DNA of 64,000 nt from Persephonella marina EX-H1 (GTDB lineage: Bacteria; Aquificota; Aquificia; Aquificales; Hydrogenothermaceae). Below, piece by piece: positions 40,564 through 64,000 of this stretch. The stretch lies in contig NC_012440.1 of assembly GCF_000021565.1 (NCBI RefSeq), positions 624,672 to 688,671 of the forward strand, given 5' to 3'. Made by a program: the position numbers and the translations under genes. The notes under the pieces are model-generated. The model saw only the letters and a program-made list of their open reading frames with translations, was not told the DNA's origin and did not search any database. Numbering within the stretch: position 1 is the first letter of the stretch; every line of letters begins with the position of its first letter.

Positions 40564-41286
40564 CTACTGGTAACTCTGTATTAAAGCTTTTGTTAAAAGC
40601 TCAAAACCGTCGGCAAGAACGAAAAGTATAAGCTTAAAAGGAAGAGATATGAGCATTGGTGGAATCATCATCATACCCATGGACATCAGTATACTCGCAA
40701 CAAGCATATCTATTATAAGAAATGGCAGAAATATTATAAATACGATCTCAAATGCCGTTTTTATCTCACTTATCATAAATGCAGGTATGAGGGAGACCAT
40801 ACTTACCTCATCAGGTGATTTGGGCTTTTCTCCAGCTATATCTAAAAACAGTTTAAGATCTTCCTTTCTTGTATTTTTAAGCATAAACTTTTTTACAGGC
40901 TCCTTTGCCCTTTCAATAGCTTCCATATCTCCTATCTCTTTTTTTAGATAGGGCTGTATAGCATTACCGTTTATATCGTCAAAAACAGGTTTCATCACAA
41001 AAAATGTAAGGAAGAGGGAAAAAGCTATTATAACCTGATTTGGAGGGGACTGAGGGATACCGAGGGCATGTCTTAAAAGAGACAGAACGATAACTATCCT
41101 TACAAACGCTGTAACTGTGATAAGTATTGAAGGGGCAAGGCTGAGTATAGTAATGAGGAAGAGAATCTTGAGTGTTATATCGAGATTGTTAAGCTGTGCC
41201 AGCGTATCGTTCACAGCATCAGTCTGTCCCAAGGATGTATAAGTTATGATAAGAAAGCTAAGGATTATTATTCTCATCTTTTTCAC
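40564..41286 (-). CDS. fliP: Flagellar export gate protein FliP
   Basis: A 240-residue protein with a cleavable signal sequence (cleavage near residue 20, TSLG), then helices separated by a periplasmic loop. SLLRHALGIPQSPPNQVIIAF and FLPFLIIDMLVASILMSMGMMM are hallmark stretches. Pentamer core of the export gate. The start is a GTG overlapping fliO by 29 bases, with GGAG 9 bases upstream. Confidence 0.95.
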   Translation of the reverse strand: MKKMRIIILSFLIITYTSLGQTDAVNDTLAQLNNLDITLKILFLITILSLAPSILITVTAFVRIVIVLSLLRHALGIPQSPPNQVIIAFSLFLTFFVMKPVFDDINGNAIQPYLKKEIGDMEAIERAKEPVKKFMLKNTRKEDLKLFLDIAGEKPKSPDEVSMVSLIPAFMISEIKTAFEIVFIIFLPFLIIDMLVASILMSMGMMMIPPMLISLPFKLILFVLADGFELLTKALIQSYQ

Positions 41287-41569
41287 TTAATGAGTCTCCG
41301 GTATTGATTGTATCCCACTCTTTTATAACCTTTATCTCTTTTTCATCAAAAGAGATAAGGAAAAACTGCCTGTTCGCCTCAATTATAGCAAATCCTTTTC
41401 CCTTTGATATATACCTGATGTCCAGAATTTTGATAAGTCCTTTCTTTCCTGGTATAAGCCCTTTTCCGTAGTTATTCACAAAGTAATAAATGGCGTACAG
41501 AAATATGATAATGATAACAAAAGAGGAAATAAACTTCAGATAGTCTGTGTACTCAAGCAAGATCCACAA
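41258..41569 (-). CDS. fliO: FliO-like export gate assembly protein
   Basis: A 103-residue protein with one N-terminal membrane helix (about 12-30) followed by a small strand-rich domain (LIKILDIRYISKGKGFAIIEANRQFFLISF), the FliO pattern. FliO helps FliP ring assembly. Start codon uncertain: TTG 41569 or TTG 41560, both overlapping fliN. Position directly before fliP is strong support. Confidence 0.82.
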   Translation of the reverse strand: MWILLEYTDYLKFISSFVIIIIFLYAIYYFVNNYGKGLIPGKKGLIKILDIRYISKGKGFAIIEANRQFFLISFDEKEIKVIKEWDTINTGDSLSEKDENNNP

Positions 41570-41792
41570 CCCTTATGCCGTATTTCTCGTTTGCTACGAT
41601 AAGTTCACCAACGGCAAACAGCTGATCTTTTACATAAAGTTCAACATAATCCTCTATATGTTTATCAAGCTTTATAATGTCCCCTTCTTTAAGGGTAATT
41701 ATCTCTATAAAAAGTTTTTTGACTCTACCTACCTCTCCTGTTACCTTTACTGTAACATCCTTCAAGAAAGATATATCGTGCTCCTGTGACAT
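41553..41792 (-). CDS. fliN: Minimal FliN (SpoA domain only)
   Basis: A 79-residue protein consisting of one SpoA/FliN surface-presentation domain (FLKDVTVKVTGEVGRVKKLF...LKEGDIIKLDKHIEDYVELYVKDQLFAVGELIV). FliN tetramers form the lower C-ring with FliM and dock FliH. It lacks the N-terminal region present in the second, 190-residue FliN encoded at 62200-62772. The next gene fliO overlaps it by 17 bases. Confidence 0.85.
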   Translation of the reverse strand: MSQEHDISFLKDVTVKVTGEVGRVKKLFIEIITLKEGDIIKLDKHIEDYVELYVKDQLFAVGELIVANEKYGIRVVDLA

Positions 41793-41800
41793 GTCAGCAC

Positions 41801-42313
41801 CTACGCTGTCTGTATTACAAAATCTGTAAAGTAAACATTCTTTACACCGCCTAAAGGTAGTATAGCATTTACCCTCTTTATTATCTCTTCCTTTAAAAGC
41901 TCTATACCTTCAGCTGTTTTGAGCTCCCTTGAGTTTTTTGTAAAAAGAAGTGTTGTTATAGCATCCTTTATCTGTGGAAGTCTCTTTTCCACTTCCATCT
42001 TTACCTGCTCGTTCTCTATCTCAAGTATTACTGTAACTTTCAAAAATCTATCAGCATCCTTGTCCGCAAGGTTAACTATAAATGTACCAACCTCAAACAT
42101 AATCCCGAGGTTTTCTATATCCTTTATCTCTTCCTGAATCTTCTCTGCCTTGTTTTCCTGTTTTTCTTCCTTCTGTTTGTCAAGGACTAAAAATTTATAA
42201 GCTGCCCCTCCTCCACCTGCGAGTATAACAAGGAGGAGGACAGCTATTATAAGTAGTTTTTTCTTCCCACCTTTCTTCTCTTCCTGTTCCTGCTCTTTAT
42301 TTTCCTCAGCCAT
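41801..42313 (-). CDS. fliL: Flagellar basal body-associated protein FliL
   Basis: A 170-residue protein: a short Glu/Lys-rich cytoplasmic start, one membrane helix (about 18-37), a charged linker and a periplasmic domain with FIVNLADKDADRFLKVTVILEIEN and KDAITTLLFTKNSRELKTAEG, typical of FliL. It strengthens stator engagement at the basal body. Confidence 0.92.
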   Translation of the reverse strand: MAEENKEQEQEEKKGGKKKLLIIAVLLLVILAGGGGAAYKFLVLDKQKEEKQENKAEKIQEEIKDIENLGIMFEVGTFIVNLADKDADRFLKVTVILEIENEQVKMEVEKRLPQIKDAITTLLFTKNSRELKTAEGIELLKEEIIKRVNAILPLGGVKNVYFTDFVIQTA

Positions 42314-44610: not shown

Positions 44611-45919
44611 ATTTTTCACCTCCTTCTTTAACAATCAGATCTATAAGTTCCTCCAGCTGTTTAAAAGATTCATTCAGGGTTACTTTTTTATGCATATCCT
44701 GTTTTATGAAGCCTTCCATCCTGCTGTGCATCTGTATCGCAAGATCTACCTTGGGTGTGGTTCCTTTCTTATATAATCCAAGATTGATCATATCCTCAGC
44801 TTCTCTGTATATACTCTCTATCTCTGTAAATATTCCCTGATATTTTAATATATCGTCAGATACTATCTGTGGCATTAACCTGCTTACACTTTTTAGAACA
44901 TCTATCGCGGGAAACACCCTTTTGTTTGCAAGCTCCCTTGAAAGGACTATATGACCATCTAAAAATCCCATCGCTGCATCAGCCACTGGATCCATTGTTA
45001 TATCATCACCTTCAACCAAAACTGTGTATATTCCCGTTATACTTCCCCTGTTGTAAAAATTACCGGCCTGCTCTATGAATTTTGGGAGCAGGGCAAATAC
45101 TGAAGGTGTGTAGCCTTTTGTTGTTGGTGGTTCACCAACTGCGAGACCTATCTCCCTCTGTGCCATAGCAAGTCTTGTGAGGGAGTCAAGGAGGAAGAGA
45201 ACATTTTTTCCCGAGTTTGAGAAAAATTTTGCAACAGCTATAGCCGAGTATGCGGCTCTTATCTTTGCTAGAGGAGTCTGGTCTGATGTTGCAACGATAA
45301 CAACAGACTTTTTCAGTCCTTCCTCTCCAAGGTTGTCCTCAATAAACTCTCTGACCTCTCTTCCCCTTTCACCTATAAGTGCTATAACGTTAACATCAGC
45401 CTCTGTAAACCTTGAGATCATACCGAGGAGTGTACTTTTACCAACACCTGCCCCTGAGAAGATACCTATCCTCTGTCCCTTCCCTATTGTAAGAAGTGCA
45501 TTTATTGATCTCACCCCAACATCAAGGGGTTCTTTTATCCTTTCTCTGTCAAGGGGATTTATCGTTGCATTTTTCAGGTAGTAATGGTGTGAAGGATTTA
45601 TCCTGTCTTTATTTAAAGGTTTTCCAAAAGGATCAAGAACAGTTCCTAAAAGCTCCTCACCAACCTCTATACTTACAGGTTCCTGCCTTGCCTCAACCCA
45701 GCTCCCAACTCTGATTCCTATAGTGTCATCAAAGGCCATAAGCAGGGTTTTCCCATCTTTAAAACCTACAACCTCAGCCTCAAGTCCATTTTCAAGAATA
45801 CAGGCATCTCCTATAGATACCTTGGGGAGAACAGCCTCTATGACGGGACCAACAACACCTGTTATCTTCCCCTTAACCTTATATCTTGGAATGCTTCTTA
45901 ATCTCTCTTTTAATCTCAT
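44588..45919 (-). CDS. fliI: Flagellar export ATPase FliI
   Basis: A 443-residue ATPase related to F1 beta. Walker A is GIFSGAGVGKSTLLG (near 165), Walker B VLFLLDSLTRLAMAQRE, and the export-type signature GYTPSVFALLPKFIEQAG is present. With FliH it energises and regulates entry of export substrates at the gate. The start overlaps fliH by 41 bases with no good ribosome site, suggesting translational coupling. Confidence 0.95.
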   Translation of the reverse strand: MRLKERLRSIPRYKVKGKITGVVGPVIEAVLPKVSIGDACILENGLEAEVVGFKDGKTLLMAFDDTIGIRVGSWVEARQEPVSIEVGEELLGTVLDPFGKPLNKDRINPSHHYYLKNATINPLDRERIKEPLDVGVRSINALLTIGKGQRIGIFSGAGVGKSTLLGMISRFTEADVNVIALIGERGREVREFIEDNLGEEGLKKSVVIVATSDQTPLAKIRAAYSAIAVAKFFSNSGKNVLFLLDSLTRLAMAQREIGLAVGEPPTTKGYTPSVFALLPKFIEQAGNFYNRGSITGIYTVLVEGDDITMDPVADAAMGFLDGHIVLSRELANKRVFPAIDVLKSVSRLMPQIVSDDILKYQGIFTEIESIYREAEDMINLGLYKKGTTPKVDLAIQMHSRMEGFIKQDMHKKVTLNESFKQLEELIDLIVKEGGEKYGISWDL

Positions 45920-46556
45920 CTTTCAGTATCTGCATCTTCTCCTTAAAGTTACTTTCAAGCTGTATATCTTCAATATTTATTCTGAAATCACCTTTTACAA
46001 GTGTTTTATCTATGGACACATCAAAGTTTTCCTTCTCAAGCATTTTTGCTACATCTTCCATATCAGGTGAGAGCGTTATCTTAAGTTTTGGGTAGTTTCT
46101 GAACTCATTTATCACCGAGATTATCTGCTGAGATAAGAATTTCTCGTTTTCCGGTGATATATAAAGGTAGTTTAACATCTCCTCAAGTGCTGAGAGTATA
46201 AGATCGTTTATATGGTCTATATACTCCTGGTAGGCTTTTTTTAAAGATTCTGAGAGCTCGTTTATCTCATTTTTAAGGGCTTTTATCTTTGATTCGTACT
46301 GATCTTTTATTTTTTTTATCTCTTCATCAAGTTTTTTTTCGAGCTGATCTGAAAACTCCTTTTCCGCTTCTTCCTTTCCCTTCAGGTATCCTTCTTTAAA
46401 TGCCTTTTCTTTTTCCTGCTGTATTCTTTTTTTAAGCTCTTCTTCTATCTTTTTTATCTTTTCCTGGTAGAACCTTTCTATCTCTTCTTTTGATATCTTT
46501 TCTAAGTCAGGTTTTTCCTCACCACTGCCAAAATCATCAAGCTCAAGCCTCGCCAT
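45879..46556 (-). CDS. fliH: FliH-like export ATPase regulator
   Basis: A 225-residue protein, acidic at the N-terminus, then a long highly charged coiled coil (about 20-120) and a C-terminal globular part (PENEKFLSQQIISVINEFRNYPKLKITLSPDMEDVAKML) matching the FliH/HrpE stator-like domain. FliH links FliI to FliN at the C-ring. Sequence is variable in this family; position between fliF and fliI settles it. Confidence 0.85.
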   Translation of the reverse strand: MARLELDDFGSGEEKPDLEKISKEEIERFYQEKIKKIEEELKKRIQQEKEKAFKEGYLKGKEEAEKEFSDQLEKKLDEEIKKIKDQYESKIKALKNEINELSESLKKAYQEYIDHINDLILSALEEMLNYLYISPENEKFLSQQIISVINEFRNYPKLKITLSPDMEDVAKMLEKENFDVSIDKTLVKGDFRINIEDIQLESNFKEKMQILKDEIKREIKKHSKI

Positions 46557-62175: not shown

Positions 62176-62202
62176 TTTTCGGTCTGTGTTTTTTTTACTT
62201 TA
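62176..62202 (-). promoter_or_regulatory. Sigma-28 (FliA) type promoter before flgF
   Basis: On the minus strand TAAA (62202-62199), 15 bases, ACCGAAAA (62183-62176), matching TAAA-N15-GCCGATAA at all four -35 bases and six of eight -10 bases. It sits in the 53-base gap between fliN and flgF, the only sizeable gap in this part of the operon, and its -35 covers the fliN stop codon. Confidence 0.55.
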
Positions 62203-62772
62203 TTCCTGCTCTTCTGTGAGAAGTTTCATCCTTTCCTGAACTGTTATTATACTTGTTATTTTTATACCGAAATGATCCTCAACTGTGTAAAGCTCGCCTT
62301 TTGCTATAAGCTTTCCGTTAACCTTAAGATCAACAGGCTGGTTTATAAATTTGTCAAGCTCAACAATATTGTTCGGGTTTAGCTTAAGTATCTCCTCAAG
62401 TGGAAGGTGTGTACTTCCTATCTCAACAGATACCTCAAGGGGTATATCCATTAAGAGATCTAACTTTTCCTGCTCAAGTCCTGCAGGCTTTTCAAACCTT
62501 TCAACCGGTTTTTCTTCTGGCTTCTCCTCTTTTTTCTCTGCCATCTGTTCCCATTCTTTTGCAAGGGCCTCCTGGTCTACCTCTTCCTCTTTTTCCTCCT
62601 CAGACTCCTCAGCCATCTTGGCCCACTCTTCAGCAAGCTTTTCCTGATCTACCTCTTCTTCCTCTTCTTCCTTCTTCTCAGACTCTGCCATCTTAGCCCA
62701 TTCTTCGGCGAGGGCTTCCTGATCTATCTCTTCCTCTTTTTCTTCCTGCTCTTTCTTTTCTTCTTCACTCAT
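62200..62772 (-). CDS. fliN: FliN switch protein with triplicated N-terminal helix
   Basis: A 190-residue C-ring protein. The C-terminal SpoA domain (about 107-185) has LLMDIPLEVSVEIGSTHLPLEEILKLNPNNIVELDKFINQPVDLKVNGKLIAKGEL (core ILKLNPNNIVELDKFINQPV). The first 85 residues are three tandem copies of a roughly 24-residue unit, EEE(I/V)DQE(A/K)LA(E/K)EW(A/E)(K/Q)MAE, at about 13-30, 38-55 and 64-81, joined by Glu/Lys-rich linkers. Most FliN proteins carry one such helix. It overlaps fliM by 8 bases. A second, minimal FliN is at 41553-41792. Confidence 0.92.
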   Translation of the reverse strand: MSEEEKKEQEEKEEEIDQEALAEEWAKMAESEKKEEEEEEVDQEKLAEEWAKMAEESEEEKEEEVDQEALAKEWEQMAEKKEEKPEEKPVERFEKPAGLEQEKLDLLMDIPLEVSVEIGSTHLPLEEILKLNPNNIVELDKFINQPVDLKVNGKLIAKGELYTVEDHFGIKITSIITVQERMKLLTEEQE

Positions 62773-63736
62773 TTTCTGACTCCTTTTCCTCCTCGTAAAC
62801 TGGTTCTACGATCATTGCAGCATATTTATTGTTTACCTTACCAAGTTTTACATTAAATTTGTGTCTGTCCTCAACATATAACCTGAATATATCATCCTTT
62901 GTTACACCAAGATCTAACTCCGATCCTTCCTTCCAGCTGAGTATATCCCTTATCTTAAACTGTAACTTTGCTATCTCCATAGTAAGCTTAAGGTTCAGCT
63001 TTCTTATCTTCTCATCCAGATTCTTTTTCCATATAGGATCTTCAGACACAGAAACCTGTGTGTAAATGATCTCTTTTATAGGCAGGAACATACTTTGAGG
63101 GAAACAGAAGTAAAATGGTGCCTCATAACCATCTATATCCATTCTACACTCAACAACAACAACCTTCTCATTTGGGGAGACTATCTTTGCAAGGTTTGGG
63201 TTTAACTCAATTGATCTCAGCTCAATAACAACAGGGTATATACTGTTCCAGACAGACTCAAAAGATTTAAGAGCTGAGTTTACAAGATCCTCAACGATCT
63301 TTGTCTCTAACTTTGTGAACTCCCTTCCCTCTACCTTGAATGGTTTTGCCGGTCCTCCAAAGAGGACACTTATTATTGTAAAAACAAGTCTTGAGTCTAT
63401 TATTAAAAGGGCGTTTTCCTTTAGAGGTCTTATTGTGAATATGTTGTAACTTGATGGGAGAGGGATTTTCAGCATAAATGTGTTAAATCTTGTTATGTAT
63501 ATATTCTCCCTCCATACCATATTTATCCTTGGAGTTATCTTACGTACATCATCCCTGTATATCTTTATCCATCTTTCAAATATCATCTCAAGACCGGGAA
63601 GACCGCCTTTTTTAATATGTTCAACCTCAGAAAAATCAAAAGGGGCTATGTCAGACTTTACCTCTTCCTTTTTCTCCTCTTCACCACCACCTAATAAAGC
63701 ATCTATCTCTTCCTGGGAGAGAAACTCGTCCGACAA
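62765..63736 (-). CDS. fliM: Flagellar switch protein FliM
   Basis: A 323-residue C-ring protein. The N-terminal FLSQEEIDALLGGG is the CheY-P binding motif, the middle CheC-like domain includes GGLPGLEMIFERWIKIYRDDVRK, and the C-terminal SpoA domain ends the protein (LNLKLTMEIAKLQFKIRDILSWKEGSELDLGVTKDD; core LSWKEGSELDLG). The intact CheY site implies that the organism controls rotation by chemotaxis. It lies 11 bases after fliG. Confidence 0.95.
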   Translation of the reverse strand: MSDEFLSQEEIDALLGGGEEEKKEEVKSDIAPFDFSEVEHIKKGGLPGLEMIFERWIKIYRDDVRKITPRINMVWRENIYITRFNTFMLKIPLPSSYNIFTIRPLKENALLIIDSRLVFTIISVLFGGPAKPFKVEGREFTKLETKIVEDLVNSALKSFESVWNSIYPVVIELRSIELNPNLAKIVSPNEKVVVVECRMDIDGYEAPFYFCFPQSMFLPIKEIIYTQVSVSEDPIWKKNLDEKIRKLNLKLTMEIAKLQFKIRDILSWKEGSELDLGVTKDDIFRLYVEDRHKFNVKLGKVNNKYAAMIVEPVYEEEKESENE

Positions 63737-63747
63737 GATAAAGCCTC

Positions 63748-64000
63748 CTAGATAAGTTCTTCACCGGCCCCGTACTCAATAACCCCTTTCTCTATAAGAC
63801 CTTTTATGGTTGCTATTATCTTCTTCCTTGCCTTCTCAACTTCTGATTTCTTAATAGGTCCTAAAACTTCCATATCTTCCATAAACATCTGTGCAGCTCT
63901 TTTTGACATATTTGAAAGGAATTTGTCCATTATCTCCTGAGGTGCTCCTTTCAGTGCAACAAGCAGATCGTTCTTATCAACAACTTTAAGTATCTCTATT
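63748..64000 (-). CDS. fliG: Flagellar motor switch protein FliG, C-terminal end (partial)
   Basis: Only the last 83 codons are inside the window; the frame stays open to base 64000. The visible part, starting IEILKVVDKNDLLVALKGAP and continuing MSKRAAQMFMEDMEVLGPI, then VEKARKKIIATIKGLIEKGVI, is the FliG C-terminal domain with the charged helix region that meets the stator. fliM follows 11 bases downstream. Confidence 0.93.
   Translation of the reverse strand, partial: IEILKVVDKNDLLVALKGAPQEIMDKFLSNMSKRAAQMFMEDMEVLGPIKKSEVEKARKKIIATIKGLIEKGVIEYGAGEELI

Follow-up and report, generated by a model that had tools for sequence, protein, structure and literature searches.

The locus examined here raises a question about the flagellar C-ring: why does one FliN protein carry a short helix repeated three times in tandem ahead of its SpoA domain, when a second FliN-like protein encoded in the same run of genes carries none, and what might the helices bind? 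The window, a stretch of 64,000 nucleotides from the Persephonella marina genome (1,983,966 bases, with a chromosome of 1,930,284 bases), holds both genes. The first, fliN1 (62200..62772, minus strand, as are its SpoA domain and units and the fliM, fliG, fliN2, fliL, fliO-like, and fliP genes below), encodes a protein of 190 residues with a C-terminal SpoA (FliMN_C) domain (62245..62457; PF01052, 84.6 bits, E=4e-24). FliN1 also passes the FliN test TIGR02480 (86.5 bits, above the cut-off of 84.05) and is encoded with fliM and fliG of the flagellar cluster. N-terminal to SpoA, the core DQE(A/K)LA(E/K)EWxxMAE occurs three times: in unit 1 (EIDQEALAEEWAKMAES, 62680..62730, Trp at residue 25), unit 2 (EVDQEKLAEEWAKMAEE, 62605..62655, Trp at residue 50), and unit 3 (EVDQEALAKEWEQMAEK, 62533..62583, Trp at residue 74), which lies nearest the SpoA domain. 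The initial annotation had described three near-identical units before the SpoA domain of a FliN, and this is confirmed by these coordinates and the PF01052 match, by a 75-base tandem array that TRF calls independently (score 219, period 75), and by shuffling, since the repeat identity of the N-terminus is 25 against a maximum of 19 in 200 shuffles of the same segment. A degenerate DNA pattern of the unit core matches the three fliN1 units and nothing else in the genome.

The units are not a recent product of replication slippage. Any two of them are identical at 12-14 of 17 residues, yet at the DNA level only 37-39 of 51 bases agree, and the synonymous divergence between them is near saturation (dS 1.05, 1.77, and uncomputable) with dN of only 0.16-0.19, indicating that they are old and have been maintained by selection. 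The segment that bears them, 102 residues long, is acidic, with a net charge of -30 and 42% Glu. In the AlphaFold model, predicted helices run through the units with low-confidence linkers between them (mean pLDDT 64). A CheC-like phosphatase domain of the FliY type was not found in FliN1: the search gave PF01052 only, and the first 100 residues consist of the units with their acidic linkers. An internal start that would give a short SpoA form of the protein was also considered and rejected, because the Met before DIPLE at the SpoA border is not conserved. The triplication is real, conserved, and functional-looking, and it makes the protein a variant form of FliN, not a system of a new kind.

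The source of the repeats is suggested by simpler relatives. E. coli FliN has one copy of the motif, AMDDLWAEALSEQ, before SpoA, and Aquificaceae FliN has a single copy at the same place (for example, ENLADMWAEALKEQ). Against the FliN_N family, PF16973, the match of E. coli FliN is strong and that of the single-unit Aquificaceae FliN weak (18.3 bits, cut-off 24; E=0.002); FliN1 gives no match to it at the gathering score. Judged by sequence likeness, then, the FliN1 repeats are tandem copies of the ordinary, ancestral N-terminal motif of FliN. Among Aquificota, FliN1 proteins have 0-4 copies with variable linkers, most carrying one to four, and 2, 3, and 4 copies all occur within the genus closest to the window, so that the expansion and contraction for which a check in relatives had been proposed is indeed seen. 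When 168 units from chemotaxis-bearing genomes are aligned on their invariant Trp, Gln at -7, Glu at -6, Leu at -4, and Ala at -3 are near-invariant. The distance from one Trp to the next varies (19-46 residues), a range more in keeping with individual docking peptides joined by flexible linkers than with a rigid rod. The idea of a multivalent arm, which also goes back to the initial annotation, is thus supported by the invariant core, by the Trp spacing, and, weakly, by the modeled helices with their linkers. Four-unit relatives end in a unit like the last one of P. marina (KEWEQM), and the expansion therefore seems to have taken place among the more N-terminal copies. An exact-pattern scan of GTDB genomes for tandem WE(E/Q)AL, in that spelling only, found none in FliN outside Aquificota; the other matches were unrelated proteins. 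A zinc-ribbon/DUF3426-type protein of Deltaproteobacteria (L249:4220-5764) has several WEEAL units, including AEEDLQAAWQEALKEQ, which closely resemble the FliN unit, although it is not a FliN.

The neighbors of fliN1 belong to both motility and chemotaxis. Its start lies eight bases inside the end of fliM (62765..63736), whose product has the CheY-binding motif LSQEEIDALL at residues 6-15. Next comes the C-terminal part of fliG (63748..63999), a gene that runs past the window end and has a complete che cluster upstream, where two MCP genes, cheY, cheV, cheW, cheA, cheZ, cheB, and cheR adjoin fliG-fliM-fliN1 immediately outside the window. An ORF of 219 residues between an MCP gene and fliG (L218:1447-2106) has no Pfam match and a PilZ-like look (RRFHRFSF..). 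Elsewhere in the window (45879-46556), the FliH N-terminus (MARLELDDFGSG) is without the pair of Trp residues by which FliN is clamped in Salmonella (PMC4443714).

Unit content was compared with the presence of CheW and CheY across 136 Aquificota genomes, with G031 (broken N-terminus) and G098 (contig end) set aside. At least one unit is kept in all 80 scorable genomes that have CheW, while 6 of the 20 without CheW have none (Fisher p=3e-5, uncorrected for kinship). These six genomes represent three lineages, all without CheW and CheY: genus g11, which we take to be Aquifex; G107 of family f3; and G135 of family f5. CheW was the first chemotaxis marker, and the CheY label was chosen post hoc, after the CheW-less genomes G046 and G047 proved to bear CheY. 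In each of these two a canonical CheY gene stands beside fliN (G046:C26:571-951 and G047:C7:7838-8212), and no CheW domain was found in either genome. With a matrix that leaves out the genus being tested, the median motif score is 23.1 in 76 genomes with CheY versus 6.4 in 19 without it. Permuting labels within genera gives p=0.012 for CheY and p=0.042 for CheW, a procedure that does not fully correct for phylogeny. Within genus g16, motifs are strong in two genomes that bear CheY without CheW and weak in three that lack CheY. SpoA scores are undiminished in the weak-motif genomes, indicating that the weakening of the unit is not part of a general decay, and SpoA is likewise intact in the zero-unit lineages. 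The chemotaxis link that had been proposed for the repeats is therefore supported in Aquificota as a strong overall trend of the unit to follow CheY, with clear exceptions. A good unit is kept in CheY-less genomes of g14, g18, and g19 and in G101, and a diverged unit persists in CheY-less f3 genomes. G101 still has MCP remnants, and its loss of CheY is likely to be recent. In addition, EIDALL of FliM, the proven CheY site, is undecayed both in G135 and in those g16 genomes that lack CheY; thus, a real CheY site need not decay when CheY is gone, and the unit may depend on some other component that disappeared along with CheY rather than on CheY itself.

What, then, does the arm bind? We give about an even chance to the reading that the units form a flexible, multivalent, chemotaxis-linked docking arm, built from tandem ancestral helices, whose likeliest partner would be CheY-P. 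The units would act as short docking peptides strung along an acidic, flexible arm that extends from the lower rim of the C-ring, with two to four docking helices per FliN1 serving the chemotaxis switch. The partner would be a chemotaxis component, most likely CheY-P, and with several copies per FliN1, CheY-P would be captured and rebound more often at the ring, close to the EIDALL site of FliM, with a possible effect on switching. FliN2 would supply SpoA subunits without docking peptides. Since the helix decays mainly in relatives that have lost CheY, it probably has a role in passing steering signals to the motor.

Published contacts count against the assignment to CheY-P. The initial annotation held that a single N-terminal helix of other FliN proteins is implicated in binding a partner or CheY-P, a premise that the papers cited here do not support. 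Instead, the literature places the CheY site of E. coli FliN in a SpoA patch, V113/V114/A115 (Sarkar 2010 as cited in PMC11087270), or, in the cryo-EM work on the Salmonella ring, sees no contact between CheY and FliN (PMC11528121). On the present data, a CheY-P site on the N-terminal helix is a fair hypothesis, not a known fact. Nor is the unit a copy of EIDAL beyond the effect of composition, a possibility that was considered and rejected: its SQEE start is like that of FliM and CheZ, but a FliM-derived matrix finds no excess of EIDAL-type sequence over shuffled N-termini, save in some LSQEELAKQW proteins.

Other partners would account for part of the same evidence. Instead of CheY-P, the units might dock another chemotaxis-linked protein, such as CheZ, CheV, or one of the PilZ type, or else a SpoA groove within the same molecule that is needed for switching only. 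The association is, after all, with the whole chemotaxis system, as CheY, CheW, and MCPs have mostly been lost together in Aquificota, and the Trp pair of FliH, which binds the SpoA thumb of FliN (PMC4443714), indicates that a Trp helix can dock on SpoA. In genus g16, however, it is the presence of CheY, not CheW, that separates good motifs from poor ones, and we regard these partners as rather unlikely. An arm for assembly or export, which would bind FliH-FliI or aid in assembling the C-ring, seems less probable still. FliN is a known partner of FliH (PMC4443714, PMC6946799), which the initial annotation had also named as a candidate, and some CheY-less genomes that bear flagellar genes have kept the unit. 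Yet FliH binds the SpoA surface of FliM-FliN (PMC4443714); G135, whose three sister species each have two good units, has kept FliM and its other SpoA proteins but no unit; and Aquifex aeolicus swims, mostly in straight lines (PMC4525482), without any unit, so that in this species the unit is dispensable for assembly, export, or rotation. As a main role, binding of FliH is thus improbable.

Finally, the repeats could be an acidic tail of low complexity that drifts, its copy number being of no consequence for function, as the richness in Glu and the variation in copy number within a genus might suggest. This is very unlikely, given that Q, E, L, and A near the Trp are almost invariant in the 168 units, and given the saturated dS and low dN between units, and a conservation that reaches E. 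coli. We return, therefore, to the chemotaxis-linked docking arm, and to the protein that lacks it.

FliN2, a SpoA-only protein of 79 residues without a unit or a C-terminal helix (fliN2, 41553..41792; PF01052, E=1e-17), is encoded directly downstream of fliL (41801..42313). Its end is overlapped by 17 bases by a fliO-like gene (41258..41569), named by position as it has no Pfam match, and fliP follows (40564..41286). The second minimal FliN of the initial annotation is thus present, but its placement in the same operon as fliN1 was loosely worded: the two genes lie ~20 kb apart, within an unbroken series of flagellar genes that are all on the minus strand and separated by no more than about 60 bp. 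FliN2 passes the PF01052 test and scores 68.0 bits against TIGR02480, below the NCBI cut-off for FliN, making FliN-like the careful name. In P. marina fliN2 occupies the site that fliM-fliN has in E. coli, and related loci of its group have fliL before and fliO and/or fliP after, the stretches examined at two of them being short, with fliP or fliO beyond their edge. In the SpoA tree, which has modest support and few columns, the FliN2 proteins of family f1 (that of the window) and family f5 (Desulfurobacteriaceae) form one group apart from FliN1, and none of the FliN2 proteins in this group has a unit or a C-terminal helix of the FliN1 type. Their dN ranges from 0 to 0.22 and their dS from 0.06 (near-copies) to saturation, with pairs such as 0.011 versus 0.63 and 0.12 versus 1.4. 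With dN so far below dS and with conserved flanks, FliN2 is a maintained paralogue under purifying selection, not the non-expressed relic that had been named as a refuting case. Two other short SpoA proteins (G120:C118:825-1037, L094, and G061:C18:28519-28731, L091) lie outside the FliN2 group, apparently with separate origins, and have no fliL or fliP neighbors within the stretches fetched. A fourth SpoA protein of P. marina, an ORF of 106 residues (PF01052, 28.6 bits), is encoded away from the flagellar cluster (L219:2435-3810; C2:1490434-1491809 of its own genome), after a 270-residue ORF without a family match (KLIPKEELDALF near its start) and before a histidine-kinase-like ORF; sister species have similar matches.

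The pairing of the two proteins invites the idea that the dosage of bait is divided between two C-ring subunits, so that expansion in FliN1 compensates for dilution by bait-free FliN2 and the ring mixes CheY-capturing with capture-free subunits. We consider this doubtful. FliN2-bearing families have a FliN1 with 2-4 units (52 CheW-bearing genomes), whereas Aquificaceae, mostly without FliN2, have one unit in 25 of 28 cases and two in 3 of 28. These counts suggest dosage compensation, although they amount to essentially one phylogenetic contrast, and genus g20 does not fit, having a second SpoA protein yet one unit. In the SpoA domain of FliN1 and its relatives, the position of E. coli V112 is Tyr in the FliN2-bearing families f1, f4, and f5 and mostly Val in the families mostly without FliN2 (f2 and f3; Aquificaceae FliN is mostly Val). 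FliN2 itself keeps a hydrophobic run, such as VVV, at the V112 patch. From such residues, the functions of patch and arm may be split between FliN2 and FliN1.

Contact between CheY-P and FliN is disputed, with pull-downs for it and the cryo-EM of the Salmonella ring against it. The N-terminus of FliN, on which the papers cited here say little, holds a motif common to Aquificota and E. coli; this motif weakens mostly in genomes that have lost CheY and is amplified in those that retain chemotaxis. Natural arrays, with 0-4 copies, provide a ready series for asking whether the arm tunes the sensitivity of the switch.

Several known systems share features with this pair. In injectisomes, the long and short forms of SctQ (Spa33, SpaO) are a full-length protein and a SpoA-only partner that occupy the same ring (PMC4832279); unlike them, FliN1 and FliN2 come from two separate genes rather than from an internal start. 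Campylobacter and Helicobacter also have two FliN-like SpoA proteins, FliY and FliN, one encoded with fliM and the other elsewhere, for which distinct roles within a common C-ring have been proposed (PMC6946799). Neither P. marina protein has a CheC-like domain, however; FliN1 has repeats where FliY has CheC, and FliN2 belongs to a separate Aquificota group. The CheY-binding peptides of FliM (EIDAL) and the CheZ C-terminus resemble the unit in being short helical peptides at a chain end, with a flexible tether and a tie to chemotaxis. Their similar-looking SQE(E/D)-hydrophobic start is not significant beyond composition, Trp replaces Leu-Leu in the unit, and the unit is only a putative CheY binder. 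FliN of E. coli and Salmonella (PF16973) has the same motif ahead of SpoA as FliN1, but in one copy, whereas FliN1 falls outside PF16973 and has three copies on long acidic linkers, in a genome with a second, SpoA-only FliN.
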